The translations under genes were made by a program, and so were the position numbers. Shown here in pieces: positions 3,001 through 45,103 of a DNA stretch of 64,000 nucleotides. The DNA lies in NCBI GenBank assembly GCA_017522225.1, contig JAFWZR010000013.1, positions 1-64,000 of the forward strand, written 5' to 3'. Position 1 is the stretch's first letter. Each line of letters begins with the position of its first letter. The stretch comes from Clostridia bacterium. GTDB lineage: Bacteria; Bacillota; Clostridia; Oscillospirales; Acutalibacteraceae. Under the pieces are notes generated by a model, which worked only from the letters and a program-made list of their open reading frames with translations, searched no databases and was not told the origin of the DNA.

Positions 3001-6000
3001 AACTGCTTTAATATTCGCAGCATTACTGTACCAGGGCTGGGATTTTATTGATGAAAACTCGTCCATTGAACCGGTTCCAAGAACTATAAGTGTACCTGTA
3101 CTATCCAATGCCCATAGTGCATTTAATCCGCAAGTACCTTTTGCCGTCACACTTCTCCAGGTAATTGTTCCGCCATAGTTCTTGCCGGTAACAGAAGCCC
3201 AACCGCTTGCCGTACTCGGATACCAGACTTCACAGGTAACACCTGAGAAAGCATCAGTTGCGAAGCTCGGATAAGAACTTTCAAATAAAACCGTCTGCAG
3301 TTGTGTACAACCGGCAAAGGCAGCATTTCTTACGCTTGAAACATTCCGTGCTATCACCGTAGCAACAGACGTACAGCCGCTGAAAGCATAGCTGCCGATA
3401 CTTGTCACGCCTAAGATCGTTATTTTTTTAATACTGTCACGGTAATCATACCAGGGAGCCTTGGAAGTCTCAGAATATGAATTCATATATCCGCTGCCGC
3501 AAATAAGCAGATTACCCGCTGTATCCAGTATCCATTCAGCAGAGGAGCCACAGGTTCCTTGCTCAGAAATTTCTCCCCACGTAATTGTTTTGCCATATAA
3601 AGAAAAACTTAAGGAGCCCCATCCCGTTTTCGATGAATGATAATATGCATTGCAGGTAACACCGCTGAAAACAAACGAATTAAGAGAAACTGTAGGTGCG
3701 TTACCCAAAAACTCCACGTATTGCAAATTCGTACAGTTGTGGAAAGCATAGGCGTCTATTCTTGTAACGCTTGCCGGTATAACTACTTTTTTAAGACTGC
3801 TGCATTCAGAAAACGCATACGCGCCCAGAGAAGAAACACTGCTTCCCAAATCTATTGCATTCAAAGCGGTGCAACCTTCAAACGCATACGAGCCTAAAGA
3901 AGTGACACTGCTTCCCAGTTCTAATGTATTCATTGCGGTACATTGGGAGAAAGCATAGTCACCAACACTTTTCACACCATTACCCAAAGTAACACTACGC
4001 AGACTTTTACAATATCTGAAAGCCTTCTGGCCAATAGATTTCAGGCTGTCCGGAAAAACAACTGAACTCAAACCGGAACTGAGAAATGCACTTTCACCAA
4101 TAGACTCTAATCCATTTCCTAAACCGACACTGTATAGGTTTGAACAGTAGCCAAATGCTGAAACACCAATAGATTTTACACTGTCCGCAAGTCTGACAGT
4201 TGTTAAACCTGAACTCGAAAATGCATAGGATCCAATGTGGGTAATACCATTTTCAACAACAAGAGTACGTATATATGAAGAATGAGCTTTCCACGGTTTT
4301 TCAGCACTTGAATAGTCAGGTATTGCACCGACACCGCTGATTGTCAATGTAGCATAGCCATTCTTATATATTAATTTCCACTGAACTCCGGTGCCGCAGG
4401 TACCGGTATTTGCATGCCAGGTAAGATCGCCACCGTAATTTATTAATTTATCCGGAGTCCATAAAGAATCTTCAAGGGGATAATACACATCAGCTGTAGT
4501 TTGCCAAAAGGCACTGCTATCAATAGTAGGTGCACTGCCCACGAATGTAATCTTATCTATATTATCATAATAAAATGCATTTTCATTTATAGAATTAACA
4601 TTGGCAGGAATCGTTATCTCTTTTAAATTGTTACAGTAACTAAAAGCATAATCAAAAATTGTTTTAACACTTGCGGGTATTGTGAATGCTGTATCAACTT
4701 TTCCGGCAGGATAGCAATACAACGTATTTTTATAACGGTCATACAAAACACCGTCGACGCTTGAATATGTTGAATTGCCGCTTGCCACATCAATCGAGGT
4801 CAAAGCGGTACAATTCAAGAAGGTAGAGTCTGCAATAAAGCTAACATTTTCAGGAATTGTGATCTGAGTCAGAGAAGAACATTTTACAAAGCTGCAGCCA
4901 CCCCGATATGAATTGCTTCCGATTTTTGTGACACTGTTTGCAATAGTAACAGAGGTGAGATTCTTACAGTCTCTGAAAGCGTTAGAACCAACGCTTGTAA
5001 CACCGTCACAGATTTCCGCTGACACAATATGATCTTTTATTGACGACCACGGAACATTACTACTATCGAACTCCTGCATTTCTCCTGTGCCGAAAATAGT
5101 AAGCTTGCCGCTGTAATCAACAATCCAATTGACAGAAGCCCCGCATGTGCCGCGTCCTATTGACCAACGCAGTGTACCTCCGTAATTCTTATTGATTACA
5201 GAATCCCAACTGCTGTCGTAATCCGGAGTAAAGCAATCTACAGCATTGCCGTAAAACGCCATTTCCGAAATTGCAGGTGCAGTTCCTAATATCGTTACCG
5301 TTTTCAGAGCAGAGCAATCCTTGAAAACATAATTTCCTATTGTTTCTACCGTTGAGGGAATTGTCACATCATCCAGTGCTGTTCCGGACAGGGCATAGGA
5401 GCCAATACTTTTCACTCCACTACCCAACCCGAACCAATCTAAAGCCGAGCAATTCATAAACGCGCCATTTCCCAATGTTATTACATTTGAAGGCAGTGAA
5501 ACATGGTTAAGACTCTCACATTTATAAAAAGCATAGTTTCCGATACTTTCTATTTGTTCACCAAGCTCCACATTTTTCAGAGCAGTACATAACGCGAACG
5601 CATAATCACCGATACGCACGACACCGTTCCCTATACTATAAGCAGTCAGACCGCTTAAACCATAGAAGGCATAATCTCCGATATCAGTAACTGTATCAGC
5701 AAGATTTATATCTGTTACATTGCTCAGTCCGTAAAAAGCGTAATTGCCGACATTCGTAATGTATTTATCAATCATTATGCTCTTAATATCAGAAGCATAT
5801 GCGTGCCACGGAACAGATTCCTGAGATGAATAATCATACATTCTTCCGCTGCCCGAAATTGTCAGCGTACCGCTATCTGATAAACTCCATACCGCAGCTT
5901 CACCGCAAGAACCTACAGCTTTATAAAAAACGCCTTCATTTCCGCAGTATGTACAGATACCGTCTACATATTTATGGTAACCTTTTGCCGTTAATGCATA

Positions 6001-7314
6001 GTCCCGTGTAATTGCTGTTGAGGTATCAAATTTGGAATCACCGTCAAAATACGCTGTACACGATGACAATTCCGGGAAATTTATCGTATCGCCGTAATTC
6101 ACATAGAAATCACGGTTAACTTCTCCTATAACCGTCACCTTGTAAACACGGTTATCCTCAGTACGAAGACACGGTGCTGAATCCACGCCGATTTTCTGAC
6201 CAATGTGATCTCCGAGTGCATAAGCTACAGAGCCTGACGTCAAGTTGTAGACCATTGTTGCCTTGCTTGTTTGCGGGCCGTCATAATAGTAACAATTAAC
6301 CATCAATCCCATACTATATATCAACGCTACACCATACCCGTCTGAACTATATGTAAGTTTGCCGGCATTCAGGCAGTTCTTTGCTATATTTGAAGACTGT
6401 GCTGACGAAATACCGCCTGCAAAAAATGTTGATATGTTACCATAATTGATACAGCCGTCAAATAACACATCAGCGGCCCAGCCTGCCACACCGCCAAGCC
6501 AGGAGGAGCCGTTGTCCTCAGAAAATGCATTGCCTCCTACATTACCGTAATTTATACAGCCTCTTAACTCCGCATCGTTAATGGAACCTGCAATACCGCC
6601 ACAGTAGTTACTGTTACTACCTGCGGAAATATGGGCGCGGTTAATACAATTAATCAATTTAAGACTGTAAGAGTTACATCTACCGTATCCGATGATACCT
6701 CCGGAATTACGAGAACATACAAATGTACCGTCATTTTCGCAATCAGAAATAGTGATTTTTCCGTTTTCTGCATTAGCATAACCTACAATACCCGCTAAGT
6801 ATTCACTTGAGTAACTGTTTTCTCTTACGGTGCCGTTTACATAACAGTTACTGATTTCAATGGTGCCTGTTCCGGCATTTGCGTAAGCAACCAAACCTGC
6901 AACATATGTTTTTCCTTCAACCGAAAAATCTGTCAGCCTGACATTTTTGATTGCGGCACCACTGCCTACATAAGCAAAAAGACCAACGTAATCTCCGCTA
7001 GCCGTCATACCTGAAAGGTTTTTTTCGTTACCGTCAAAAGTACCGCGGAATGCCGTTGAGGATGTTCCTATAGGCGTCCACGCGTCTTTCAACGCTATAT
7101 CAGATGAAATCAAAAAGTATTTTCCGCTGTATGAATTACCGTTTCTGACATTCGTAGCAAGCTGTCGGAGTCCGCTTTCATCCGATATACGGTACGGAGA
7201 GCTTTCCGTGCCTAAGCCACTCCATGTAGCAGCAAAAGCCACCGAACTATTCATTCCGACTATAATCAAAACGGCACTGATAAATGCAATAAGCTTTTTA
7301 AATATACACTTCAT
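1..7314 (-). CDS. Giant secreted BspA-type leucine-rich-repeat protein with CxxC array and dockerin-like end (partial)
   Basis: The frame is open from the ATG at 7314 to the left edge, 2438 codons without a stop, so the C-terminus lies outside. GGTGG just upstream supports the start. A signal peptide fills residues 1-28. Residues about 38-360 hold GLUG-like repeats (GLFAYVG, GGIAGSI, GGVAGWA). From about 465 to 1525 there are five blocks, each opening with G(T/S)CG, a short beta segment and W(Y/H/S)-type linker, followed by LRR_5/BspA repeats (SIGxYAFxxCxxL) and closing on YGGTLTW-like sequence. Then come CxxC knuckles, two copies of a beta domain (nt about 2440-2110 and 1960-1620, each ending GWVSL), about eleven CxxC units (nt about 1600-280), and a final YGDTNGDSWYD that looks like the first dockerin calcium loop. 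The role is inferred to be adhesion or surface assembly; the exact partner is unknown. Confidence 0.9.
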   Translation of the reverse strand, partial: MKCIFKKLIAFISAVLIIVGMNSSVAFAATWSGLGTESSPYRISDESGLRQLATNVRNGNSYSGKYFLISSDIALKDAWTPIGTSSTAFRGTFDGNEKNLSGMTASGDYVGLFAYVGSGAAIKNVRLTDFSVEGKTYVAGLVAYANAGTGTIEISNCYVNGTVRENSYSSEYLAGIVGYANAENGKITISDCENDGTFVCSRNSGGIIGYGRCNSYSLKLINCINRAHISAGSNSNYCGGIAGSINDAELRGCINYGNVGGNAFSEDNGSSWLGGVAGWAADVLFDGCINYGNISTFFAGGISSAQSSNIAKNCLNAGKLTYSSDGYGVALIYSMGLMVNCYYYDGPQTSKATMVYNLTSGSVAYALGDHIGQKIGVDSAPCLRTEDNRVYKVTVIGEVNRDFYVNYGDTINFPELSSCTAYFDGDSKFDTSTAITRDYALTAKGYHKYVDGICTYCGNEGVFYKAVGSCGEAAVWSLSDSGTLTISGSGRMYDYSSQESVPWHAYASDIKSIMIDKYITNVGNYAFYGLSNVTDINLADTVTDIGDYAFYGLSGLTAYSIGNGVVRIGDYAFALCTALKNVELGEQIESIGNYAFYKCESLNHVSLPSNVITLGNGAFMNCSALDWFGLGSGVKSIGSYALSGTALDDVTIPSTVETIGNYVFKDCSALKTVTILGTAPAISEMAFYGNAVDCFTPDYDSSWDSVINKNYGGTLRWSIGRGTCGASVNWIVDYSGKLTIFGTGEMQEFDSSNVPWSSIKDHIVSAEICDGVTSVGSNAFRDCKNLTSVTIANSVTKIGSNSYRGGCSFVKCSSLTQITIPENVSFIADSTFLNCTALTSIDVASGNSTYSSVDGVLYDRYKNTLYCYPAGKVDTAFTIPASVKTIFDYAFSYCNNLKEITIPANVNSINENAFYYDNIDKITFVGSAPTIDSSAFWQTTADVYYPLEDSLWTPDKLINYGGDLTWHANTGTCGTGVQWKLIYKNGYATLTISGVGAIPDYSSAEKPWKAHSSYIRTLVVENGITHIGSYAFSSSGLTTVRLADSVKSIGVSAFGYCSNLYSVGLGNGLESIGESAFLSSGLSSVVFPDSLKSIGQKAFRYCKSLRSVTLGNGVKSVGDYAFSQCTAMNTLELGSSVTSLGSYAFEGCTALNAIDLGSSVSSLGAYAFSECSSLKKVVIPASVTRIDAYAFHNCTNLQYVEFLGNAPTVSLNSFVFSGVTCNAYYHSSKTGWGSLSFSLYGKTITWGEISEQGTCGSSAEWILDTAGNLLICGSGYMNSYSETSKAPWYDYRDSIKKITILGVTSIGSYAFSGCTSVATVIARNVSSVRNAAFAGCTQLQTVLFESSYPSFATDAFSGVTCEVWYPSTASGWASVTGKNYGGTITWRSVTAKGTCGLNALWALDSTGTLIVLGTGSMDEFSSIKSQPWYSNAANIKAVVIGDKITSIADYAFSSCTAIQTVTIGTGVTSIDSVAFSNCSALKSITFRGNAPTIYSNAFNQVTATVYYPVANATWTSSKRQNYGGTLTWEVFCVKHNETVAPAVAPTCTTDGLTEGLYCSLCNEVLVAQEKVPARGHYAIGPDNTEVPVDTLAGDCFNPIMCTVCNMVAKPAMGHRVLGVTLVETDPLEIDNTSSYPFSLTDGTYYSTNKSHGSSSLLTITALYDCTLTLNYGVSSEGSYDKLYISRNNSTLDTISGEVSGKTLTLTLAAGDTVQVRYSKDSSQSGGSDMGWVSLDYDWVTAEGIGDVPADTAEPTCTEDVVCRYCQTVVKEAAGHRVILQQQEPEKLYEIVNTSEAPFVLTDGIYYSSNHESSSASDLKVEALHDFTMTLNYGVSSETNYDKLIIILNGTTEQTISGLVTDKSIELKLTAGDVLIIRYQKDESVNQNDDRGWVSLQHKWEPAQTVVPADTIETDCDGVTCDFCQTVVKEGLGHAWDEGVEQVPATETSEGEMLHTCERCGETMIQPIPVLEHIHNYSGTVTPPGCEADGYTTYTCRCGDSYIDDYVPKTGHSYKSEITTPATHTAEGVETFTCDCGASYTEVIAKIEEHTYVATVTPSTCEENGYTTYTCACGDTYTEIILATGHDLEEISIPSTSCIDIGYECYKCTNCGKEYGKTFYEPLDHSAGEWQTEKAATCTQDGCRFKICTVCEIELEREVISATGHSYSVETLAEPTCIEDGLKRHTCSACGDSYDEAILAVGHISVTITTEPTCSSKGTIRYLCEACGEQLKETEEIPMLSHEYEETVISEPTCITDGEKRYTCSACGDSYSETIPSVGEHKTIAIRKEPTCTKIGTEQYVCEVCGNLVGDLVILPKLDHSYGEWTVVRDPTATEDGSKEHSCTVCGKAEAATIPAIGFETADGVTVDFKKNIISGFNSGETSLDGYTTIVKENYIWEYETSNGKLGTGSKAILKDGDTVIGEYTILVYGDTNGDSWYD

Positions 7315-7359
7315 CAAATACCCACCTTTGTAAAAATTCAAATAAATTCGTTAACTTAT

Positions 7360-26802: not shown

Positions 26803-26828
26803 GGGGTTGCGTGTTTCCACGCAACCCC
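26803..26828 (-). terminator. Terminator of the three-gene surface operon
   Basis: GGGGTTGCGTG (26803-26813) pairs with CACGCAACCCC (26818-26828), loop of 4. Read on the minus strand it is followed by a T-rich run, so it ends the operon descending from 36037. Confidence 0.85.
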
Positions 26829-26849: not shown

Positions 26850-29800
26850 TTATTCAACTGTGTATTCAACTACTGCGTCAGTTGCTACCCAAGCGTTGTT
26901 TACACGTACGTATACTGCTACAACGTTTGCGCCTTCGTTGTTCATCCAAGCCTTACCTGTGAACTGAAGTTTGCCGTCATCAAGAACAACAGCCTTGTCA
27001 GCATAGTAAGTTGCTGTTGTGCCGTTATCCATGCGGAACTGGATACCCTGTGCATCAGGACCAGTTACAACTGTAGTAACAACTGCACCCTTCTTACCTG
27101 ATGTTGCAGCAGGTGTTACTGAGTAAACTTCTGCATCAACTACAGGCTTAATTGTTTCAACTGTAAAGTTGTACTTCTCTGTTTCCCAAACATATCTTGT
27201 GCCTTCGATATACTTAGCACGAGCCTTTACTTCGGGACCGATGAGGTTAGTGTTGATTGTCCAGATTTCGTAAGCAACGTCACGATCAAGAGAATTAACC
27301 TTTTCGCCAGCTGCATTGTAGCTTTCGATTGTTACATTCTTGTTGTATCTGTCATAAGTTCTTGTACCGCCATCTTCTTCGATGAACTGGATCATAGCAA
27401 CTCTGCCGATAACAGAAACTGTGAATGTATTGTGTGTATCCTCTGCCGGAGTCCAATTGATTGAACTGATGAGTGAAGTAACGGGCTTACGCTCCATCTT
27501 TGAGATAGCGTCAAGGATATCAGCTGTAGCCTTATCAACGTTAGCCTGATCGTCTTCTGAGAGATCCTGGTCAAGAAGTTCTCTACCAGCTGCTACTGCT
27601 GCTGCAAGAACATCGTATGTTTCCTTTGTCCATACGTTCGGGTCATAGCCGTCGCCTTCAGCGATAGCTGCCTTAAGTGCTGTGAGATCAGCAACCTTCT
27701 TAAGGCCTTCGATAGCTGCTACGATAGCGTTTGCTGCTGCGTCAACGATATCCTGATCGTCTGCAAGAAGATCTCTTGCTACGTCGTTACCGTCTGCAAC
27801 TGCATCAGCAAGAACTGCGTATGTAGCTGCTGTGTAATCTTCTGCTGCATAGTCAGCTGCATCTGCAAGAGCCTTATCGAGTGCTGTGTAATCAGCATAC
27901 TCAACCTTAACTTCTACCATGTTAGCTGTTGCTTCACGGATAGCTGCTGCATAAGCATCAACTGTAGCCTGGAAGTTTTCGTTAAGATCATAGTTAACCT
28001 TAGCGATCTCAGCGTCTACTGCTTCGATAGAATCAGTTGTGTAGTCAGCTGCTGCCTTCTTAGCTTCGTACTCAGCGATAGCTGCATCAACATCTGTATA
28101 GTCAGCTGCATCTGCAAGTGCAAGTGCTGCCCATGCTCTGTTGAACTTAACATCCTGAAGCTTAGCCTGAGCAAAGAACTCATATGTGTAATCAGGAACA
28201 TAAGTTTCGATAAGAGCAGCTACTGCATCATAAGTATCATACTTATAATCGTCTCTGTTGTATGACTTGAACTCTTCGATCTTTTCAAGAACATCTGAGT
28301 TGTCATAATCTCTGTATGTTGCGTTTGCAACAGCTTCATTGATAGCTGCTGCCATAGCGTCAACCTCAGCCTGCTTTGACTTCTTGAGACCTTCAACAAC
28401 ATTAGCAAGAGCTGCGTTGATTGCATCAAGAGTAGCGTCGTCATAGCTGTTTACGCCTTCATCCTTCTTATCAAGGATTGCCTGTGCTGCAGCCTTAGCT
28501 GCGATAACTGCTGAATAGTCAGCTGCTGCTTCTTCGAGTTCGCCCATAGCCTTTACAAGAGCTGCTGTAGCTTCGTCGATGATAGCCTGATCCTCAGATG
28601 TGAGGTCACGTGCAACGTTTTCTGCATTTGCAAGAGCAGTTTCAACTGCTGCAAATGATACATAGTTGTCAGCTACGAGAGCCTTAGCGTCTGCGATAGC
28701 CTTATCAAGTGCTGTGTAGTCAGCGCCTGAAGCAGGAACAAGAGCCTGGATCTTTGCGTTAAGTTCGTCAGCAGCTGCAGTAACTGTAGCCTGAGCTGAG
28801 ATCTTAAGGTCACGAGCAACTGCCTTAGCTGCTTCGTAAGCTTCATTAGCAGCGTTGTAAGATGCTGTTGTCCAATCCTTAGCTGTAAGAGCTTCGAAAT
28901 CTTCGATAGCCTTATCGAGTGCTGTGTAATCAGCAGCCTTCTCTGTAAGACCTGTGTAAGCTGTTGTAAGCTCTGCAAGAGCTGCATCGATTTCATTCTG
29001 ATCAGCTGCGTTCTTGTTAGCAACAAGGCCTTCAGCTACGCTGAGAGCTGCTGTAAACTGAGCTGCTGAATCATCTGTGTAATTGTCAAGAGCTGTATCA
29101 GCTACTTGGTTTACATAAGCTTCGAGAGCTGAGTAATCAAGAGCTGCTACGAGATTATTGATTGCTGTGTTAAGAGCTGCTGTAGCTGCGTCAACTGCAC
29201 CCTGATCAGCTGTGTTCTTCTGATCGATAGCTGTTGCATCATTGTACTTAGCTGTTGCTTCTGCAAATGATGTTGCATCCCAATCAGCTGCGTCAAGGCC
29301 TTCATACTTAGCGATAGCATTATTGAGTTCTGTGAAGTCTGCAAGATACTCTACGTCTGCAATAGCATCTGTAAGAGTAGCAACTGCTGCGTCGATTGTA
29401 CCCTGATTGTCTGATGTAAGAGCTGCATTACCAGCCTCAATAGCTGTGTTAAGAGCTGCGATTGAATCAGTTGTGATGTCAGCCTGAAGAAGCGCTGCTG
29501 CTTCTGCAATCTTTGCCTCAAGAGCTGATGTATCTACGCCTGCTTCACCGGGAACCTTGATTGTGATTCTAGCTTCTGAAAGATCGAAGTACTGGTTGTC
29601 GTCACCGTACTGCATATTCGGATAGTTCTGTGCATTTGTATCGATATCGCCTGTAACCTCAGACTCACCGTCACAAATACCAACTTCAGCAAGTCTCAAA
29701 GAGCCGCCCTTCTTAGCTGAACGCTGCTCAAGACCTTCCGGAATCATAACTGTGTATGTTGAACCGGGTGCTGCATCTGCAGGAACCTTAACGGGCATCA

Positions 29801-30425
29801 TGATAAGATGAGTTGAATCATCTTCCCAGATGAATGTATAACCTACGTCTGCTGTAGCAAGGTTATAGATACGGTTCCACTTCCACTCTGACTGAGTGAG
29901 GAGTTCGTTACCAGCGTCATCTGTCGGCCAGTTCTCACTTACGAGAACCTGAGCGTCAGGAGACTGAAGTGACCATGCGTTCTGCTGAGCGTTTGTTACG
30001 CCGTGTTCAGCAACCCACTCGTGGTCTGTGTTCCACACGTGAATCTTTCTGAGGTTTGCACCTGTGATTACACGGTTTCTCTGTGACTGATAGTCTTCAG
30101 CAGCATCAATAAGAGCTGATGAATAGAAAAGGTTTGTCTGGAATGAGTGAACAAAGTAGTTGTTTGTTACATACATTTTAACAAAAACAACTTCACCGGG
30201 CTGTGCTTCAACAACGCCACCGGGTTCACTTTCGTCACCGGTTTCTGTCTTTGTAACAGCACTGTTTGATGTCCACTTAACCGTACCTGCAGTACCTGTG
30301 AGCCAGATTTTAACCCGGTACTCAGCTGTGTCGGGATTACCGTTAGCTGATGCTGCAACTACGAAAGCGCCGAGTGCGATTGCAACTGCAAGAACAACAC
30401 TCAAAACTTTTTTTGCGAGTTTCAT
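26850..30425 (-). CDS. Large secreted protein: cohesin-like N-domain, about ten FIVAR-like helical repeats, C-terminal Ig-like domain
   Basis: A 1191-residue protein. Signal peptide to about residue 28 (cleaved after ASA). Residues about 60-290 look like a cohesin-type beta sandwich (PGEVVFVKMYVTNN, FQTNLFYSSALID). Residues about 295-980 contain about ten 65-75 residue helical repeats of FIVAR type, each with YTALDKAIxxA, DxxSxxAxxxAxxxA and AxxAIxxAI patterns. A beta domain fills the rest. No LPXTG, SLH or membrane anchor is visible. The start at 30425 has AAGGAGG 7 bases upstream. The Ala/Lys/Leu codon choice is narrow (GCT/GCA, AAG), suggesting high expression. Third gene of the operon. 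Role inferred: long extended surface spacer. Confidence 0.85.
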   Translation of the reverse strand: MKLAKKVLSVVLAVAIALGAFVVAASANGNPDTAEYRVKIWLTGTAGTVKWTSNSAVTKTETGDESEPGGVVEAQPGEVVFVKMYVTNNYFVHSFQTNLFYSSALIDAAEDYQSQRNRVITGANLRKIHVWNTDHEWVAEHGVTNAQQNAWSLQSPDAQVLVSENWPTDDAGNELLTQSEWKWNRIYNLATADVGYTFIWEDDSTHLIMMPVKVPADAAPGSTYTVMIPEGLEQRSAKKGGSLRLAEVGICDGESEVTGDIDTNAQNYPNMQYGDDNQYFDLSEARITIKVPGEAGVDTSALEAKIAEAAALLQADITTDSIAALNTAIEAGNAALTSDNQGTIDAAVATLTDAIADVEYLADFTELNNAIAKYEGLDAADWDATSFAEATAKYNDATAIDQKNTADQGAVDAATAALNTAINNLVAALDYSALEAYVNQVADTALDNYTDDSAAQFTAALSVAEGLVANKNAADQNEIDAALAELTTAYTGLTEKAADYTALDKAIEDFEALTAKDWTTASYNAANEAYEAAKAVARDLKISAQATVTAAADELNAKIQALVPASGADYTALDKAIADAKALVADNYVSFAAVETALANAENVARDLTSEDQAIIDEATAALVKAMGELEEAAADYSAVIAAKAAAQAILDKKDEGVNSYDDATLDAINAALANVVEGLKKSKQAEVDAMAAAINEAVANATYRDYDNSDVLEKIEEFKSYNRDDYKYDTYDAVAALIETYVPDYTYEFFAQAKLQDVKFNRAWAALALADAADYTDVDAAIAEYEAKKAAADYTTDSIEAVDAEIAKVNYDLNENFQATVDAYAAAIREATANMVEVKVEYADYTALDKALADAADYAAEDYTAATYAVLADAVADGNDVARDLLADDQDIVDAAANAIVAAIEGLKKVADLTALKAAIAEGDGYDPNVWTKETYDVLAAAVAAGRELLDQDLSEDDQANVDKATADILDAISKMERKPVTSLISSINWTPAEDTHNTFTVSVIGRVAMIQFIEEDGGTRTYDRYNKNVTIESYNAAGEKVNSLDRDVAYEIWTINTNLIGPEVKARAKYIEGTRYVWETEKYNFTVETIKPVVDAEVYSVTPAATSGKKGAVVTTVVTGPDAQGIQFRMDNGTTATYYADKAVVLDDGKLQFTGKAWMNNEGANVVAVYVRVNNAWVATDAVVEYTVE

Positions 30426-30473
30426 TGAATAATCCTCCTTAAAATATTTCCAAATAATCAATTTTTCAATTGA

Positions 30474-31550
30474 TTAGTATGGGTTTCTCTGATCGATGAC
30501 CGTTGAGGCACCAACAACAGAAAGGTAAATCGGGAAATCAAGTCCGTCTACCATACCGTCATTTGTAAGGTCACCGGCATAGATAATTGTGGGGTCTGTA
30601 CAGACCTCACTTGCTGAAACGTAAGAAACTACGAACGGCAAGTCATAGCCATCAGTGTAAGCATCACCGTTGATATCACCAAAGATGATAAGTGTATAGC
30701 TCTTTACAGGAACAGCGTCAATATTGAGGCTGATCACAGTACCTGTACCAAAACCAAGGTCAGTCGGTGTTGTACGGATAACTGCATCACCTGTAGCCTT
30801 TACATACTCTTTGATTTCTGACGGGCCGGAAAGGCCAAGACCAAAACCATAGATACGGCGATTTTCTTCATCAATGATAGCGGGTGTTCCGTAATCCTCG
30901 TTAGGAACCAAGGAAACCTGCTCACCAACTACCATAGCATTTGCAGGAACAAATGTCATGGCGCAAGTTGTTGAATCGAGGTAATAGAATGTTGTTGCAT
31001 CTGCAGGATTTTCGATAGCCTGGTAGTAGAAAAGGTCTGACTCTTCAGGAATGAAGATTGTACCTGTCTTACCAACTGCAGATGACTTTGTCTTGAGCTC
31101 GAATGTGAATGCAAGCTCGCCTGCTTCGTTATTGATGTGACCTACTTCACCGTTTGAAACAGATGCAGTCCACTGAACAAGAATGCAACCGAATGCTGAG
31201 GGGTCATAAGCCTCAGGAATAAACTGAGCAGTATCAATTGTGTTGGAGTTGAGTGTACCTGATGTAGCACAGGTATTCTGACCAACAAGACCGATGATTG
31301 TGGGAAGCTCATAAACTGAACTGTCGAACATAATCGGGAAACGGAATGACGGAACATTGTAGTTGGAAGCGATTGTTACACGAACCTGTACTGCAGATTC
31401 TGCTTCATATGTTTCGTTATCCGTTGTGATTGTTACTGTCATTGCTTCTGTTCCCGTCGGAGTGCCTGCAGCAGAAGCGCTGATTGCAAAGAGGGAACAA
31501 GCAAGAGTTACAGCAAGAAGAATAGCAAGAATTCTTTTAGAAATTTTCAC
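30474..31550 (-). CDS. Secreted protein with cohesin-like N-domain and C-terminal dockerin
   Basis: A 358-residue protein started by GTG at 31550, with AGGAGG 8 bases before it and a signal peptide beginning VKISKRI. The mature N-half follows the cohesin pattern (VQVRVTIASN, FRFPIMFDSSVYEL, a later GELAFTFELKTKSSAVG). Then a short beta module with GFGTGTVISL and YTLIIFGDINGD leads into two calcium loops: DINGDAYTDGYD and DLTNDGMVDGLD, a type I dockerin. A protein with both partners could bridge other assembly members. The cohesin call is pattern-based only. Confidence 0.75.
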   Translation of the reverse strand: MKISKRILAILLAVTLACSLFAISASAAGTPTGTEAMTVTITTDNETYEAESAVQVRVTIASNYNVPSFRFPIMFDSSVYELPTIIGLVGQNTCATSGTLNSNTIDTAQFIPEAYDPSAFGCILVQWTASVSNGEVGHINNEAGELAFTFELKTKSSAVGKTGTIFIPEESDLFYYQAIENPADATTFYYLDSTTCAMTFVPANAMVVGEQVSLVPNEDYGTPAIIDEENRRIYGFGLGLSGPSEIKEYVKATGDAVIRTTPTDLGFGTGTVISLNIDAVPVKSYTLIIFGDINGDAYTDGYDLPFVVSYVSASEVCTDPTIIYAGDLTNDGMVDGLDFPIYLSVVGASTVIDQRNPY

Positions 31551-31580
31551 TTTATATTCCTCCTGTTCGTTTCTCAGAAT

Positions 31581-31636
31581 ACGGCATAGAGCTGACCTCT
31601 CGCCGTTTCCCGACAGAGGCTTTCGCCTCCACCGGG
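31581..31636 (-). promoter_or_regulatory. Two tandem RNA hairpins between surface genes 1 and 2
   Basis: In the 108-base gap TCCCG/CGGGA (31608-31612, 31632-31636) encloses GAGGC-GAAA-GCCTC, and ACGGC/GCCGT (31581-31585, 31602-31606) encloses AGAG/CTCT. No T run follows, so it is not an ordinary terminator. Processing or stabilising structures between cellulosome-type genes are a plausible role, as is a cis-regulatory element. Confidence 0.55.
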
Positions 31637-31658
31637 ATAGCATTTAATTTAGGGTTAA

Positions 31659-34600
31659 TTAGCCGACAACGATCTCTCTTGCGATTGAATCAGCAACTGC
31701 AGATGCAGCTGTGATTGAAACGAAGAAAGGATAGTCTGATGAGTCAGCCATATTGTCAAGGTTAACGTCAACTGCTATTGACTGAACATCGTCAGGAACA
31801 AGTGCTGCAGCGTTAACCAACTGAACAACTGCCATGTCTGATGAGTCAACGAATGTGTCGCCATTTACATCACCGTATGTAGCGATTACATAAGTGTCGA
31901 TAACAGCGTCTGTTGCAGAATTCTTAACTGTAACAACAGCTCTTGTTGAGAATTCGCCCATATCGTTTGTTTCAACTTCTACATAGCAGCCTTCGCATGC
32001 GAAGTACTCTTCTGCAGCAAAGCCGCCGTCGTTAGCGTTACCGATACCTGTAAGGATCTTTGTACCGTCCTCAGCTTCGATAACAACGAGCTCAGCGTCT
32101 GTGCCTGCCGGGTTAACGAACTCGAATGTGGGCTCGTCACCAGGCTCTTCGCCGCCCTCTGTCGGAGGAACAAGTCTCTTCTCAGCCTCAAGAAGCTCAC
32201 GATAAGCTGTCTTGATCTTTGTCTGGTTCGGAGCTGCCTCGTTAGCTGTAGCTGTAGCGAATGTAAGAGCGTTCTGGTAATTTGTCCATGATTCGTCTGA
32301 ATACTCAGATGCTGCGCCGATCGCTCTTGTCGGGTTAGCAAGCTCTGCCTCAAGGTGAGCCTTGTATGAAGGAGCCTTGAGAAGTCTGCCGAAGTAAAGT
32401 GAGAATCTGTGCTCATTATAAGCCTTGTCAAGCTCGTTGATAACGGCTACGTTACCTTCTTCATCAGGAATTGTAGCTGCATCGATCATGCCTTCAAGAG
32501 TTCTCAATTCATCACGGAAGTTGTAGTATGTGTAAGCAACATAGTCTGATACGCCCATGTGGATGTATGCAGGATCATAATACGGAAGGTCTTCCGGATT
32601 TGACGGATAGCAAGCTTCGATAAGTGCGATTGATGAATCAACACCTGCTGAAAGAACCTGTGCTTCAAGCTCTTCGATAGCTGCTGAAAGGTTGTTGTAT
32701 GCGGGCTCGTAGTAAGTGAACTTACCTGTCGGAGTTGAGAAGCTCGACTGAAGGAATGAGCTGTAAACTGCCTTAGCAGCCTCTTCCATAGCCTGGTTGT
32801 ATGCTTCCCAAACTGTCTTGCCAGCGTATACAGTTGAAGCAGCTGTACCGTAAGCTGACGGCTGACGGTGCTTGCCCATTTCGCTGTCAAGCATTCCGGG
32901 AAGGCCGTAATCCTTGTAGCAGAAGATAAGAGCACCTGCGTTAGAAACCTTTGATGAACCGTTAACCATAGCACCAAATTCCATCTGGATCTTCGGTGTA
33001 CGAACAACAGCGCCGTTTCTCGGGTTGTAAACCATACCAGCTTCAATAATTTCGTCCCAAACAGCTTCCTTCTCTTCACCTGAAAGTGCGTCGTATTCTG
33101 CTGTTGTTTCGTAAAGCTTGATGTTAGCGATACCTGCAGTATCTTCAACCTGCTGCATGATTGTTGTCTCATCTGTAAGAACCTGGAGATACTCAGCAGT
33201 CTTTGTTGCACCGGGGAGCATGTTGTTAGTAGAGATGTTTTTCACTGCATAAGGAACAGCTGTTGCCTGTGAAGCATTTGTGTTCTGTACTGTAACTGTG
33301 ATGTCTGTAAGGTCGCCCATTCCGCTAGCATAGAGGTAACGAGGACCGTCTACGATTGAGAAGCCACCTACTGTATTAGATGTAAGCGGTGTATCTGAGT
33401 CATCAGATTCGTTGTAAGCAATGTATGAGTACATTGTCTCTGTGATGGGTTCATCTGTAAGCGGTGAACCGTCCTCAGTAAGAACGTCATAAGTCATTGT
33501 AACAACGAGCGGAGTTGATTCCTTAACAGAACCGTTGAATGTAACTTCAACTGTCTGACCACCGGCAATCTGATCTACCGCAGAAATGCTCAAAGTGGAA
33601 ATGTTTGATGTGATTGACTTAACATCATAAGTGTAAAGCTGATCCTGATGGAATACGCCGTTAGCATCTGTGTAACCTGTGTTGATACCTGTTGAACCGT
33701 TACGGATCATAAGCTTAACCAAAACAGAACCGGGAGTGCTGATTTTGTTACCATCAACAGCTTCGTTTGTCGGGTCCCAAGTAAGCTCGGGGAACTCGAA
33801 TTCCTGATCGTTTGTGAGGTTAAGGATGTTACATACAATAGGAAGGATAGCCTGTGCAAGGTTCTCTTTGTAGTTCCAGAGAGCATCGAAGATAGCTCTT
33901 ACTGTACCTGCGAGAGCCTGGTTTGTAACAAGAGCATCAATTGTTGTAGCAGACCTAAAAGCACCCGGGAAGATGATGTTAATAACTCTGGATACAAGAT
34001 TGATGATTACCTGCTTCGGAGTACTCTGAAGTTCTGAATCTGCACGATACTCGAACAGTGCGAAGAGTGCATCGAAGTCAAGTGCTGCGATTGTATCAAT
34101 CAATGTGAAGAGGAAGTTCTGCAAGCTGCCGTTAGCTGATGCCGGAAGCCAGTTTTCAGGAATGATTGAGAAGATAACTGTATCGATTGTTTCCCAACCT
34201 GAAGCACCGTCATTGAATGTGATGCCGTTGAGAACACCTGAGTAATTGTCTACTGCGTAGTCAGCAGCCTTCTTGAGCTGAGCGTCAACGCCATCCATAT
34301 CGTAAACGAACTCAAGGCCCATATCGATCTCTGAGCTTAAAGCGTGGATAGCATAGTCGATACCCATGATAACAAGAGAGTCTGTGTTGTTCGGATCAAG
34401 AGCTGAGAAGTCAAGCTCCGGAACGTCTGTTGCAAGAACCTGCTTGAGAGCATAGAATGCAAACTCAGGAAGTGTATCTGCTTCAGGAACGTACATACCG
34501 TAAGCTGAGCTGTTAACGATAGCGCGAGCTGCATAGATAACGAGCTCGTTAGCGTCCATAGCTTCAATCTCTTCGGGAGTAGCCAATTCAACATAATCAG

Positions 34601-35747
34601 CAAAGAGTTCGTCGCCTGCATTGATAAAGAGCTGCTTAGCAACATTTACAAGGTTCGGCTTGAACTGTGTCTTGTCGCCTGCCTGCCATACCAAAATTTC
34701 AGGATTGATAACTACATCAAATACTGACTTAACAACATTGTTGATCTGTGAAACCAATGTATCAGATGTGAATTCATAAGTGGGAACAACGTAGTTGATG
34801 TCGAAAATATCAGCATACTTATTGAGGTTTGATGCGTCTGATGTTTCTTCACCAGTCTCTTCGTTTGTTGTATAAACAACACCGCAGAGTTCCTGAATTG
34901 TTCTCTTAAGCTCGCTGTTGAGAAGCGGAACAAGAAGTTCGTTGTAGAGAACCTTGAGTACGTTATCAAGGAGTGTGTACATTGTACCTGTTGAGATGTT
35001 TGTCTTGCCTGCAAGTGCGGGAACAAGGCCGTCAACATGTTCAATTACGCCTTCATCGTTCTCTTCGTCGTAACCTTCAACAACATACTTGTCGATAAGG
35101 TCCTGAGCCATTGTGTCTACTGAAGAAGCAGCCACCTGTGCATCTGTACCTTCAACACCGTAAGTAAACTCATAAAGGAGACCCTTGAGGAGCTTATTAA
35201 CGTCCATAAACTCGCTGAGGTCGATGAGTGAGCTGAGGATTGAACCTGTGTCAAGGGTACCTTCTACGAATGATACGAGAAGATCTGTGTTGTCATGCAG
35301 GAACTGGAATACTGCGTAGAGGATATCTGCGTCAGTCTTACCTGCTGTAGCTCTTCTTACACCACCCTTTGCTTCAGGAGCGAATGCGTCAGCATTCAAG
35401 TACTGAAGGTCACCGAGCATACCCTTCAATGATGAGAAGAGAGCACCGTTAACGATAGTGTAAACAGAGTCCATTGCTGCGTCAACAGATGTAAGATCGA
35501 TATCACCAACGATGATGTCCTCACGTGTGAACTTAAGCTGTTCTTTTGTGAGCATACGATCGATTTCATCTATTGCTGCTGATGCATACTGTTCTGTTGT
35601 AAGAACTGCCTTATCAAGCTTGTTGTACTGGCCGATAATTGCAGAATCCTTATAAGCAGTGTATGCAGCGTTTGCACCGATTACGAGTGTTGAGCACAAC
35701 ATAACAATTGCGAGGATAACACTCAGAAATCTTTTTGCATTACTCAT
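31659..35747 (-). CDS. Large secreted protein of unknown function with C-terminal dockerin
   Basis: A 1362-residue protein with a signal peptide (cleavage near NA-A, residue 27). Residues 30-650 are helical with no domain I recognise. Residues 670-850 look like beta sandwiches (VLVKLMIRNGS, VTFNGSVKES). A helical region to about 1190 precedes a Pro/Glu linker (EGGEEPGDEP). The end has the same pre-dockerin beta module as the next gene (YVIATYGDVNGD) and two loops, DVNGDTFVDSSD and DVNLDNMADSSD. GGAGGTG lies before the ATG. First gene of the operon; likely an abundant surface component given its biased codon use. Function unknown. Confidence 0.8.
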   Translation of the reverse strand: MSNAKRFLSVILAIVMLCSTLVIGANAAYTAYKDSAIIGQYNKLDKAVLTTEQYASAAIDEIDRMLTKEQLKFTREDIIVGDIDLTSVDAAMDSVYTIVNGALFSSLKGMLGDLQYLNADAFAPEAKGGVRRATAGKTDADILYAVFQFLHDNTDLLVSFVEGTLDTGSILSSLIDLSEFMDVNKLLKGLLYEFTYGVEGTDAQVAASSVDTMAQDLIDKYVVEGYDEENDEGVIEHVDGLVPALAGKTNISTGTMYTLLDNVLKVLYNELLVPLLNSELKRTIQELCGVVYTTNEETGEETSDASNLNKYADIFDINYVVPTYEFTSDTLVSQINNVVKSVFDVVINPEILVWQAGDKTQFKPNLVNVAKQLFINAGDELFADYVELATPEEIEAMDANELVIYAARAIVNSSAYGMYVPEADTLPEFAFYALKQVLATDVPELDFSALDPNNTDSLVIMGIDYAIHALSSEIDMGLEFVYDMDGVDAQLKKAADYAVDNYSGVLNGITFNDGASGWETIDTVIFSIIPENWLPASANGSLQNFLFTLIDTIAALDFDALFALFEYRADSELQSTPKQVIINLVSRVINIIFPGAFRSATTIDALVTNQALAGTVRAIFDALWNYKENLAQAILPIVCNILNLTNDQEFEFPELTWDPTNEAVDGNKISTPGSVLVKLMIRNGSTGINTGYTDANGVFHQDQLYTYDVKSITSNISTLSISAVDQIAGGQTVEVTFNGSVKESTPLVVTMTYDVLTEDGSPLTDEPITETMYSYIAYNESDDSDTPLTSNTVGGFSIVDGPRYLYASGMGDLTDITVTVQNTNASQATAVPYAVKNISTNNMLPGATKTAEYLQVLTDETTIMQQVEDTAGIANIKLYETTAEYDALSGEEKEAVWDEIIEAGMVYNPRNGAVVRTPKIQMEFGAMVNGSSKVSNAGALIFCYKDYGLPGMLDSEMGKHRQPSAYGTAASTVYAGKTVWEAYNQAMEEAAKAVYSSFLQSSFSTPTGKFTYYEPAYNNLSAAIEELEAQVLSAGVDSSIALIEACYPSNPEDLPYYDPAYIHMGVSDYVAYTYYNFRDELRTLEGMIDAATIPDEEGNVAVINELDKAYNEHRFSLYFGRLLKAPSYKAHLEAELANPTRAIGAASEYSDESWTNYQNALTFATATANEAAPNQTKIKTAYRELLEAEKRLVPPTEGGEEPGDEPTFEFVNPAGTDAELVVIEAEDGTKILTGIGNANDGGFAAEEYFACEGCYVEVETNDMGEFSTRAVVTVKNSATDAVIDTYVIATYGDVNGDTFVDSSDMAVVQLVNAAALVPDDVQSIAVDVNLDNMADSSDYPFFVSITAASAVADSIAREIVVG

Positions 35748-36043: not shown

Positions 36044-36072
36044 AATATAAACTATTCTGCTTGTAAAGTCAA
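36044..36072 (-). promoter_or_regulatory. Sigma-A promoter of the structured RNA and surface operon
   Basis: TTGACT (36067-36072) and TATATT (36044-36049) on the minus strand with a 17-base spacer, placing the start near 36037 and giving a roughly 290-nt leader before the first gene. Confidence 0.7.
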
Positions 36073-43203: not shown

Positions 43204-43256
43204 ATGTAATCGGACTGCTTATTGTGAACAAAACCAAATCTAAGGAGGAAAACGAA

Positions 43257-44096
43257 ATGAAACAAACGGTAAAAAACTTTCTTTGCGCATTACTTGTTAT
43301 TTGTATTGTGCTGACATCGTCGGTGATGGCTTTTGCTGCTGTTACAGGTGACATCAACTCCGACGGTAAGGTGAATTCAACAGATGCGCTCGGTATCCTT
43401 AAGTATACCGTCGGTGCAACACCGTCAAAGTTTGAAAAAAGCGTTGCCGATGTTAACGCTGACGGAAAGATCAACTCAACAGATGCTCTTGCTGTGCTCA
43501 GAATCGCGGTGGGTATCGGTAACTCAACAGAATTAAGCAAGGATGAAATTGTCAAGCTTTATAATAACGGTCTTGCAAAAGTCAGTGAACAGCTTACCTG
43601 TAACCTTACAATTTCTACTGATATTTCAGGAACTGTTAATAAGTTCCTGATGAACGGCGAGAAAAATCCTATGTTTGAAAGTCTATTAGAAAACACGCTT
43701 AATTCGGATTATGAAGACGAAAAATACAGATTTTTCAACGGAAAAACAACTGACGGACAAAAAGCCAAGGACATTCTTGCTTCAATCAACTTAACAGCAA
43801 ACAGAGTTAAATCCGCAAAAGCAGTAAAACAAGGTAACGGATATAAACTCAATATTGTGCTTGTCGAAGAAACTGTAACCTTGGATGAGCTTTTGCCTGA
43901 TATGATAGATTTCGACTACTGTGAGGTTACTTATCCCGGAACAAATATAACCGCCATAATTGATAACGAGGGCAGAATTGAACGCGTTGATTATGTTTCA
44001 GACGGTCATATGAAAGCTTCCGGCCACATAAACGACTCTTCTGTATATATTGATGTGTTAATCGCCGAGGAAAGCACATACACATTCTCATACTAA
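43257..44096 (+). CDS. Secreted protein with N-terminal dockerin (paralog A)
   Basis: A 279-residue protein: signal peptide (ends AFA, residue 27), then directly a dockerin with two calcium loops, DINSDGKVNSTD and DVNADGKINSTD, and a C-terminal domain starting DEIVKLYNNGLAKV and ending ITAIIDNEGRI-type sequence. The N-terminal position of the dockerin is unusual. TAAGGAGG lies 9 bases before the ATG. It is 54 bases after the glycosidase-like gene and probably in its transcript. The C-domain function is unknown. Confidence 0.85.
   Translation: MKQTVKNFLCALLVICIVLTSSVMAFAAVTGDINSDGKVNSTDALGILKYTVGATPSKFEKSVADVNADGKINSTDALAVLRIAVGIGNSTELSKDEIVKLYNNGLAKVSEQLTCNLTISTDISGTVNKFLMNGEKNPMFESLLENTLNSDYEDEKYRFFNGKTTDGQKAKDILASINLTANRVKSAKAVKQGNGYKLNIVLVEETVTLDELLPDMIDFDYCEVTYPGTNITAIIDNEGRIERVDYVSDGHMKASGHINDSSVYIDVLIAEESTYTFSY
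43329..43515 (+). repeat. 187-bp dockerin-coding repeat, copy A
   Basis: Compared base by base with 44252-44438, only five positions differ in 187. The copy covers the end of the signal peptide and the complete dockerin. Confidence 0.95.
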
Positions 44097-44191: not shown

Positions 44192-45103
44192 ATGAAAAAA
44201 GCATTCAGCGCACTACTTACTCTGGCATTGCTCTTTACTTCAACCGTTTTTGCTTTTGCTGCTGTTACAGGTGACATCAACTCCGACGGTAAGGTGAATT
44301 CAACAGATGCACTCGGCATTCTTAAGTATACCGTCGGTGCAACACCGTCAAAGTTTGACAAAAGCGTTGCCGATGTCAACGCTGACGGAAAGATCAACTC
44401 AACAGATGCTCTTGCTGTGCTCAGAATCGCGGTGGGTACTGTTAATCCTCCGTCATCATCTGCTGAAATCATAAATCTCTATAACAACGCTGTCAATAAG
44501 GCTGTTTCTTCAAAGGCAGGCTTCAAAAAAAGCAGAGTAACTGTATTGCACAACCTCGAAGGCGGTGCTCTGCTCAAAATTCAGCTTGTTGTTGATATGG
44601 TTAACGATTTCCTCGGTGTCGGAACAACACAGTGGGATAATAAGAAGGGCAAGCAGGATAACCTCAGTAAGGCTTCACTTACAGCATCTGACATCAAGCA
44701 TGCTTACTGCACAGAAAATAACGGTTTATACACCGTAACTCTGAGTCTGAAGGACGGTAGCAGTTCAGCTAATATTTCAGGCAACTCTGACACATCACCG
44801 CTTCAGAGAGCAGGCGTATTCGCAGGTAAGGGCGACAAGAGAGCTTATGACTATAAGAATTCCGAGAACATATACGCAGCTATCAACGGTGTTGATGAGT
44901 GTACAGCAGAGTCAGCACTTGAGAAGGTAACAAACACAAAGATCACAGCTGTTATCGACTCAAAGACAGGTAACCTTCAGTCACTCACAGCTTCATGGGA
45001 TTGGTACGTTGAGCTTACAAATGTTAAGTACACGGTCGTTGGCATCAAGCAGGCTAAGGGTAACGCTACAACAACAGTCAAGATAACTGACTTTAATTAT
45101 TAA
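44192..45103 (+). CDS. Secreted protein with N-terminal dockerin (paralog B)
   Basis: A 303-residue relative of the preceding gene. Signal peptide, dockerin loops DINSDGKVNSTD and DVNADGKINSTD, a Pro/Ser linker, then a C-domain opening EIINLYNNAVNKAV and containing ITAVIDSKTGNL and a YTVVGIK strand. The dockerin is almost identical to copy A while the C-domains have diverged far. CAAGGAGG precedes the ATG; a weak promoter (TTGTCG 44111, TATAAC 44132, spacer 15) may exist in the 95-base gap. Function of the C-domain unknown. Confidence 0.85.
   Translation: MKKAFSALLTLALLFTSTVFAFAAVTGDINSDGKVNSTDALGILKYTVGATPSKFDKSVADVNADGKINSTDALAVLRIAVGTVNPPSSSAEIINLYNNAVNKAVSSKAGFKKSRVTVLHNLEGGALLKIQLVVDMVNDFLGVGTTQWDNKKGKQDNLSKASLTASDIKHAYCTENNGLYTVTLSLKDGSSSANISGNSDTSPLQRAGVFAGKGDKRAYDYKNSENIYAAINGVDECTAESALEKVTNTKITAVIDSKTGNLQSLTASWDWYVELTNVKYTVVGIKQAKGNATTTVKITDFNY
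44252..44438 (+). repeat. 187-bp dockerin-coding repeat, copy B
   Basis: Partner of 43329-43515, with 182 of 187 bases identical; four of the five differences are synonymous. Confidence 0.95.

Follow-up and report, generated by a model that had tools for sequence, protein, structure and literature searches.

A three-gene cohesin-dockerin operon of Clostridia with a species-specific dockerin code and a predicted common receptor

Introduction

In Ruminococcus flavefaciens, one gene cluster encodes two X-dockerin proteins, ScaB and CttA, that are described as docking on ScaE, which provides one anchoring cohesin (PMC5301203). This is the closest known arrangement to the locus analyzed here, which consists of three genes for secreted cohesin and dockerin proteins (genes 1, 2 and 3) in the window, i.e., the whole 64,000-nucleotide stretch of contig JAFWZR010000013.1 (positions 1 to 64,000; assembly GCA_017522225.1) from a Clostridia bacterium of the Acutalibacteraceae. 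From sequence comparisons, we give a probability of about 0.72 to the reading that the operon encodes a self-contained cohesin-dockerin assembly made up of secreted, abundant proteins, in which the dockerins of genes 1 and 2 are alternative ligands of the gene-3 cohesin.

In the proposed assembly, gene 3 would be the receptor: a stalk of ten FIVAR repeats would extend its N-terminal cohesin outward, and the Ig-like domains at the opposite end of the protein would probably hold it to the cell or matrix. The proteins of genes 1 and 2 would dock on this cohesin as alternatives via X-module-dockerins with one common code. When docked, gene 1 would present its large head, and gene 2 would present a second, conserved cohesin for proteins with another dockerin code. 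The code and the gene-3 cohesin would change together between species, so that each species would possess a private lock and key. We infer not only the binding and the alternative docking, but also the surface location, the anchoring role of the Ig-like region, the clients of gene 2 and a function in adhesion or matrix formation.

Dockerins and Cohesins of the Three Proteins

An earlier sequence-only reading of this DNA had assigned a C-terminal dockerin to gene 1, a cohesin-like N-domain and a dockerin to gene 2, and a cohesin-like N-domain with about ten FIVAR repeats to gene 3. These assignments held, as did its gene coordinates and lengths (1362, 358 and 1191 amino acids, aa). The C-termini of genes 1 and 2 are predicted to be dockerins by their two Ca-binding loop-helix repeats and conserved Asp positions: Asp occupies loop columns 2 and 37 in 30/30 gene-1/gene-2 dockerins, and columns 13 and 48 hold Asp or Glu. 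The gene-1 dockerin scored 20.1 bits in a single-protein Pfam scan, under the curated cut-off of 22.9, and 26.8 bits, over the cut-off, in the whole-genome search. The gene-2 dockerin was under the cut-off in both (19.2 and 21.7 bits, respectively). A profile of 15 gene-2 proteins matched solved dockerins, one of them at 6.4e-7, and gave weaker matches to calmodulins.

By sequence profile, the homology of the gene-2 N-domain to cohesins is firm. Pfam gave an E-value of 0.036 for the gene-2 sequence alone and found a cohesin in 7 of the 15 members of the gene-2 alignment (best 6.9e-4). Of the six PDB matches of the gene-2 cohesin profile, five carry the name scaffoldin adaptor protein B (best E 0.0012); we take these chains to be cohesin modules. 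In hhalign comparisons, canonical cohesins (21 rows) gave 91-95% against the gene-2 domain, while control domains gave at most 2.9%.

Gene 3 contains exactly 10 FIVAR repeats (Pfam score of 42.2 bits against a cut-off of 29.2), while Pfam finds no cohesin in its N-domain, unlike that of gene 2. With a profile of 15 gene-3 domains, ScaE was the best of six PDB matches (E 0.052), and the other five were unrelated. With a family profile of 30 sequences, five of which were h3 domains of the second operon described below, all seven PDB matches (E ≤ 10) were cohesin or scaffoldin chains, including ScaE, with E-values of 0.0035-0.62 over stretches of 25-50 positions. Given that hhalign aligned the gene-2 and gene-3 domains at 98% (97.8%), the predicted homology of the gene-3 N-domain to cohesins, which is weak alone, becomes firm through gene 2. 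The NCBIfam family ZmpB was rejected for gene 3 (33 bits against a cut-off of 3000, over a stretch of FIVAR repeats). "Ig-like" for the C-terminus of gene 3 is our own reading of the alignment.

Neither Pfam nor NCBIfam gave a family for the head of gene 1, and no PDB sequence matched the profile of the head. A single FIVAR repeat is found at residues 1129-1189 of gene 1 (E 2e-6). No SLH domain, anchor motif or catalytic domain was found in the three operon proteins (Pfam, NCBIfam, motif check), which agrees with the earlier reading, and the lack of an enzyme domain in the operon bears out its view that the system is structural rather than enzymatic.

A Dockerin Code Common to Genes 1 and 2

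When whole dockerins of genes 1 and 2 were compared in 15 operons, agreement was 0.453 within the same operon and 0.296 with other operons, a difference reached in 0/20,000 shuffles, and the own gene-2 dockerin was the best partner of gene 1 in 13 of the 15. The module just before the dockerin showed no such excess (0.194 own vs. 0.197 other). The strongest code columns were 11, 12, 18, 19, 23 and 24 and their second-repeat counterparts, all on the helix-1 side; in the R. flavefaciens complexes whose structures are solved, contacts are dominated by helix 1, including positions 11 and 15, although the numbering may be shifted by one (PMC5429695).

The code was also found in 15 operons of other genera that were kept apart from the choice of columns, where the recognition columns agreed at 0.407 within and 0.161 between operons (0/20,000), and the upstream module, used as a control, at 0.247 and 0.216 (1580/20,000). 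For all 30 operons the values were 0.443 and 0.139 (0/20,000 shuffles); these tests covered 30 of 31 operons, G430 being left out for its weak dockerins. Random thinning by gene-1 distance, in which 21, 17-18 or 9-13 operons were kept (50 draws each, 2000 shuffles), gave mean values of 0.45-0.46 own and 0.13-0.14 other, and in no draw was a shuffle as high. Repeats 1 and 2 of each dockerin also share recognition residues (0.62 and 0.48 vs. 0.23 and 0.20), similar to dual-binding dockerins, whose two halves likewise have common recognition residues. Thus, the gene-1 and gene-2 dockerins of one species share predicted recognition residues that differ between species.

The Cohesin That Follows the Code

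The distance between codes correlated with the distance between gene-3 cohesins, with partial r of 0.40 in 15 operons (3/5000 permutations), 0.74 in 7 close genomes (4/5000) and 0.38 in 24 operons (0/5000), the last set leaving out G126 and G161, which are fragments, and operons without gene 3. The gene-2 cohesin did not track the code in the same sets (partial r of -0.06, 0.15 and -0.11, respectively). When regions were compared in the 7 close genomes, r was 0.74 for the gene-3 cohesin (0.72 when partial on the gene-1 head, 14/5040), while the raw r was 0.25 for the gene-1 head, 0.28 for the gene-1 middle, 0.14 for the gene-2 cohesin, 0.11 for the gene-2 X module, and 0.23 and 0.34 for FIVAR repeats of gene 3. 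Mean code sharing was 0.22 in 6 operons with an extra cohesin and 0.50 in 18 without (p 0.006); this grouping was our own (18 single, 6 extra, 6 unclassified), and in G011, G005 and G002, which are among the 18, a contig end truncates gene 3.

The gene order in genus g16 points in the same direction. In five of six g16 stretches (L170, L172, L185, L186 and L187), a gene-3-like gene or its cut start follows gene 1 within 180 bases, without gene 2 between them; in the sixth, L173, the contig ends. Four of these five gene-3-like genes match a cohesin profile; that of L185 is recognized via its C-terminal region only, and L172 has a further cohesin-like frame downstream. Because of the common code, its tracking of the gene-3 but not the gene-2 cohesin, and the g16 gene order, both dockerins most likely dock on the gene-3 cohesin as alternative ligands, and not in a chain from gene 1 through gene 2 to gene 3. 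The conserved gene-2 cohesin would then be free for another dockerin.

Such a chain, with gene 2 as the adaptor, had been proposed in the sequence-only reading: the gene-1 dockerin would bind the gene-2 cohesin, and the gene-2 dockerin the gene-3 cohesin. The domain order permits it, and the gene-1 and gene-2 codes do differ in G329 and G378 (0.1 and 0.0 of the recognition columns shared). In addition, G378 (locus L155) has an extra adaptor gene with a cohesin, an X module and a dockerin (556 aa); its dockerin resembles that of gene 2, not that of gene 1, and gene 3 of L155 has two gene-3-type cohesins. With a common code across 30 operons that does not track the gene-2 cohesin, and with gene 1 directly before a gene-3-like gene in g16, we consider the chain quite unlikely. 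Very unlikely in our view is a polymer of gene 2, in which the dockerins of genes 1 and 2 would both bind the gene-2 cohesin, gene 1 would cap the polymer and gene 3 would bind something else. Gene 2 has both a cohesin and a dockerin, and the dockerin of R. flavefaciens ScaH is reported to recognize the cohesin of its own protein (PMC5301203), but the gene-2 cohesin differs by only 0.15 in the 7 genomes, against a mean distance of 0.61 for the code, and the partial correlation of this cohesin with the code (r 0.15) was reached in 1422/5000 permutations.

Several results weigh against docking of both dockerins on gene 3. The recognition columns were chosen after the first 15-operon test, the 27-residue and whole-dockerin tests being independent of that choice, and the shuffles and permutations were made without a phylogeny model. 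In the window's genome, genes 1 and 2 agree at only 2 of 10 first-repeat recognition columns, and over the whole dockerin the own gene-2 partner still ranks best. Columns other than the recognition columns also agree between the gene-1 repeats, albeit less (0.244 vs. 0.159, 96/20,000). The gene-1 X module tracks the code as well (r 0.61, partial 0.62, 13/5040), so that the gene-3 cohesin is not alone in following it; linkage or contact could be the cause. When canonical cohesins were compared directly with the gene-3 domain, hhalign gave 18-51% (controls at most 2.9%). No anchor was found in gene 3: 17 complete gene-3 proteins, including that of the window, have no LPXTG motif and no C-terminal membrane helix, and the IPATG string of a cut gene-3 frame (G232) lies away from a true end. 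In the second operon (genes h1, h2 and h3), the h2 code and the h3 cohesin gave partial r of 0.12 (7 genomes, 1518/5040) and 0.27 (10 genomes, 228/5000), and the correlations for other parts of h3 were as high or higher (0.48 for the N-extension, 115/5040; 0.41 for the Ig region, 117/5000). This test does not single out the cohesin and supports nothing.

Finally, agreement within genomes also exceeds that between genomes at loop columns other than those of the recognition set (0.539 vs. 0.417, 0/20,000). This is what gene conversion between the dockerin segments of two adjoining genes could produce, in which case the code would be shared without a common partner. We regard gene conversion as highly improbable: where residues agree, codon agreement is hardly higher within genomes (200/378, 0.529) than between them (3371/6836, 0.493), which speaks against it; the segment just upstream shows no excess; and conversion offers no reason for the gene-3 cohesin to follow the code.

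Other Dockerins, Cohesins and a Second Operon

The window's genome (1.58 Mb, 69% complete) has 27 Dockerin_1 matches besides those of the operon. Of 30 dockerin places, 26 were read and sorted by eye into 15 NSTDAL-like, 9 DGQD-like (class b), which are on mostly large proteins, and the 2 of the operon with their own code. The five class-b proteins that were scanned, of nine, contained leucine-rich repeats (LRR), F5/8 type C or Ig-type domains, or the dockerin alone, and no glycosidase. Four of these five (L063-L066) have an X-module dockerin (DGQDA...AADCNHDG) that precedes an acidic tail and a hydrophobic C-terminus. As a side observation, L063-L066 are large proteins with LRR, F5/8C or no recognized type. 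For class b, 20 stretches were taken from related genomes; 15 of these had a dockerin, eight with DGQD. The code of h1 has a distance of 0.05 in the 7 close genomes. Such conservation would fit the conserved gene-2 cohesin.

A Pfam search found one canonical cohesin in the 69% complete genome, and five cohesins were found in it in total. One of them is in a 335-residue frame (L229, C33:42469-43272), in which an N-terminal NSTDAL-like dockerin precedes a gene-3-like cohesin domain; its protein is possibly an adaptor. Short frames like L229 were also seen in other genomes of the genus. Two neighboring genes of the window for proteins of about 300 aa (43224-44096 and 44192-45103, plus strand) have near-identical NSTDAL dockerins at the N-termini, and Pfam finds no further domain in these proteins. 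An assignment by elimination, with three cohesins for three dockerin classes, was dropped when two more cohesins turned up.

These dockerins and cohesins bear on a further explanation, in which the operon would be one of the usual anchoring components of a cellulosome, with the gene-2 cohesin taking up the enzymes. Consistent with it are the 27 other Dockerin_1 matches and five cohesins, and the several canonical cohesins on one contig of a relative (G011). Among the 15 NSTDAL-type dockerin proteins, the enzyme scan covered the two in the window. No glycosidase was found in the five class-b proteins scanned, and the Pfam search found a single canonical cohesin in the 69% complete genome. This explanation is, in our judgment, unlikely.

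The second, paralogous operon encodes h1 (1215 aa), which has a head paralogous to that of gene 1 and a dockerin, h2 (1911 aa), which has many FIVAR repeats and a dockerin that Pfam misses, and h3 (569 aa), which has a cohesin and a C-terminal region of the gene-3 type. The three genes were found together in 6 of 7 close genomes and on two contigs in G002. No common code was found between h1 and h2 (0.06 own, 0.08 other), and h2 did not match genes 2 and 1 (0.14 and 0.15 own vs. 0.17 and 0.16 other); this operon thus serves as a negative control. In the 10-genome rows of the second operon with h1, the h1 segment of G007 is, by error, repeat 2. It is a doubtful idea, offered tentatively, that the operon and its paralogue together build an abundant non-enzymatic coat or matrix, in which the fast-changing, species-private code would bar neighbors in the same gut from using shared parts, as a self-recognition system for extracellular assembly.

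Conservation and Genomic Setting

The window carries all three genes, and so do 13 of the 17 other genomes of the genus (14/18). In three of the genus genomes with the operon a contig end truncates gene 3, and in two more, G008 and G017, gene 1 reaches the contig end; several assemblies end inside or beside operon genes. G003 (68% complete) gave no match, and G006 (61% complete) matched only via the h1 paralogue. All three genes are also present in G035, which belongs to another genus. The gene-1 head or a paralogue was found in 70 of 398 genomes and 23 of 135 genera of the family (E ≤ 1e-10), and gene 2 adjoins gene 1 in 16 of the 34 stretches with a gene-1 head that were examined. The six named relatives are Clostridia genomes from ruminant caecum, colon or rectum. 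No relatives of the operon were found in the viral contigs searched, and no paper on it was met in literature searches of open-licence papers.

The three genes (Table 1) are likely one operon. They lie on the minus strand with gaps of 108 and 48 bases, between truB on the upstream side and a convergent GH31 gene on the downstream side, and each has a GGAGG-like site and a hydrophobic signal-type N-terminus, in line with the signal peptides that had been proposed. Gene 2 has 358 aa when started from GTG and 389 aa from an upstream ATG. A single promoter for all three, as had been claimed, is plausible: no terminator-like hairpin lies between the genes and one follows gene 3. It should be noted, however, that promoter-like and terminator-like sites are not enriched over shuffles (21 vs. 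16.6, standard deviation 4.0, and 9 vs. 6.9, standard deviation 2.6, respectively), and that there is a single weak promoter-like site between genes 2 and 3.

Table 1. Features of the operon and location of its paralogue.
Feature	Position	Strand	Basis or remark
Gene 1, secreted, 1362 aa	31659..35747	-	conserved head, one FIVAR, X-like module, C-terminal dockerin
Gene 1 signal peptide	35667..35747	-	hydropathy and sequence reading
Gene 1 X-like module before dockerin	31875..32135	-	alignment
Gene 1 dockerin, predicted operon-private code	31689..31874	-	Pfam, alignment, code comparison
Gene 2, secreted, 358 aa	30474..31550	-	cohesin, X-like module, dockerin
Gene 2 cohesin-type domain, slow-evolving	30915..31463	-	PDB profile matches, hhalign
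Gene 2 X-like module	30681..30914	-	alignment
Gene 2 dockerin, code common to gene 1	30495..30680	-	
Gene 3, secreted, 1191 aa	26850..30425	-	cohesin, 10 FIVAR, C-terminal Ig-like region, without dockerin
Gene 3 cohesin-type domain with insertion, fast-evolving	29511..30338	-	proposed receptor of both dockerins
Gene 3 ten FIVAR repeats	27501..29534	-	
Gene 3 C-terminal Ig-like region	26853..27458	-	alignment, profile matches; common to h3 of second operon
Promoter-like site 5' of gene 1	36044..36072	-	TTGACT-17-TATATT; consensus match only
Intrinsic-terminator-like hairpin 3' of gene 3	26803..26828	-	11 pairs, T tail
Second, paralogous operon	contig C26, locus L230:1512-12836		h1, h2, h3

The codon use of genes 1-3 is that of highly expressed genes, which substantiates the biased codon use noted earlier. 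Against 17 frames of the ribosomal-protein cluster, of which L2 was identified in the analysis and the remaining 16 were named by us, the codon adaptation index was 0.834 for gene 3, 0.805 for gene 1 and 0.707 for gene 2 (ranks 2, 3 and 5 among 39 window genes). The 17 frames themselves range from 0.593 to 0.841, and the Hsp70 gene of the window has 0.851. Elsewhere in the window, a giant frame of at least 2447 aa with BspA-type leucine-rich repeats (1-7341, minus strand) crosses the window edge.

Implications and Comparison with Known Systems

Most of what is known about cohesins and dockerins comes from enzyme complexes. The operon described here is conserved, enzyme-free and has the codon use of high expression, and its dockerin code varies even between close species, with one cohesin following it. 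If the proposed docking is true, the system would be a non-enzymatic relative of the surface anchor of the cellulosome. The operon also offers a testable case of receptor-ligand co-evolution, with roughly two dozen natural pairs as candidates for orthogonality tests. In one R. flavefaciens assay most LRR-type dockerins bound no tested cohesin, some binders being listed in table 1 of that source (PMC5301203); the operon cohesins are possible receptors for LRR-type dockerins. Compared with the definition of a cellulosome, which calls for a multi-cohesin scaffoldin and polysaccharidases that bear dockerins, the operon has one cohesin per protein and no enzyme domain, in a 69% complete genome that was partly examined.

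Surface proteins of Gram-positive cocci with FIVAR repeats are anchored adhesins. Gene 3 is similar to them in its tandem FIVAR helical spacers (Pfam PF07554) and differs from them in the cohesin at the tip of the stalk; a search for an anchor motif found none. The receptor cSca5 of the Limousia mucinolysome likewise has an N-terminal cohesin and is very highly expressed; unlike gene 3, it carries LPXTG, and its predicted clients are mucin-degrading enzymes and multi-cohesin scaffoldins (PMC12997984). Single-cohesin proteins of unknown function are a class noted in cellulosome surveys, and what PMC11557425 says of this class includes no such operon, code covariation or FIVAR repeats.

The sca cluster of R. 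flavefaciens is alike in that its two X-dockerin proteins have the same type of dockerin and their one receptor has a single cohesin (PMC5301203), and ScaE is among the PDB matches of the gene-3 domain. Because of this resemblance to ScaB and CttA on ScaE, the possible new surface assembly announced in the sequence-only reading is less new than it appeared. In the sca cluster, ScaE has LPXTG, ScaB of strain FD-1 has nine cohesins, and CttA has carbohydrate-binding modules (CBMs) (PMC5301203). In the operon, by contrast, gene 2 has one cohesin, gene 3 combines a FIVAR stalk with an Ig-like region, the code varies between species, and no sortase motif, CBM or enzyme was found. The operon is not classed as a sca-type member because neither LPXTG in the 17 complete gene-3 proteins nor an enzyme in the operon was found; as far as its sequence tells, it would work in the same way as ScaB and CttA on ScaE.

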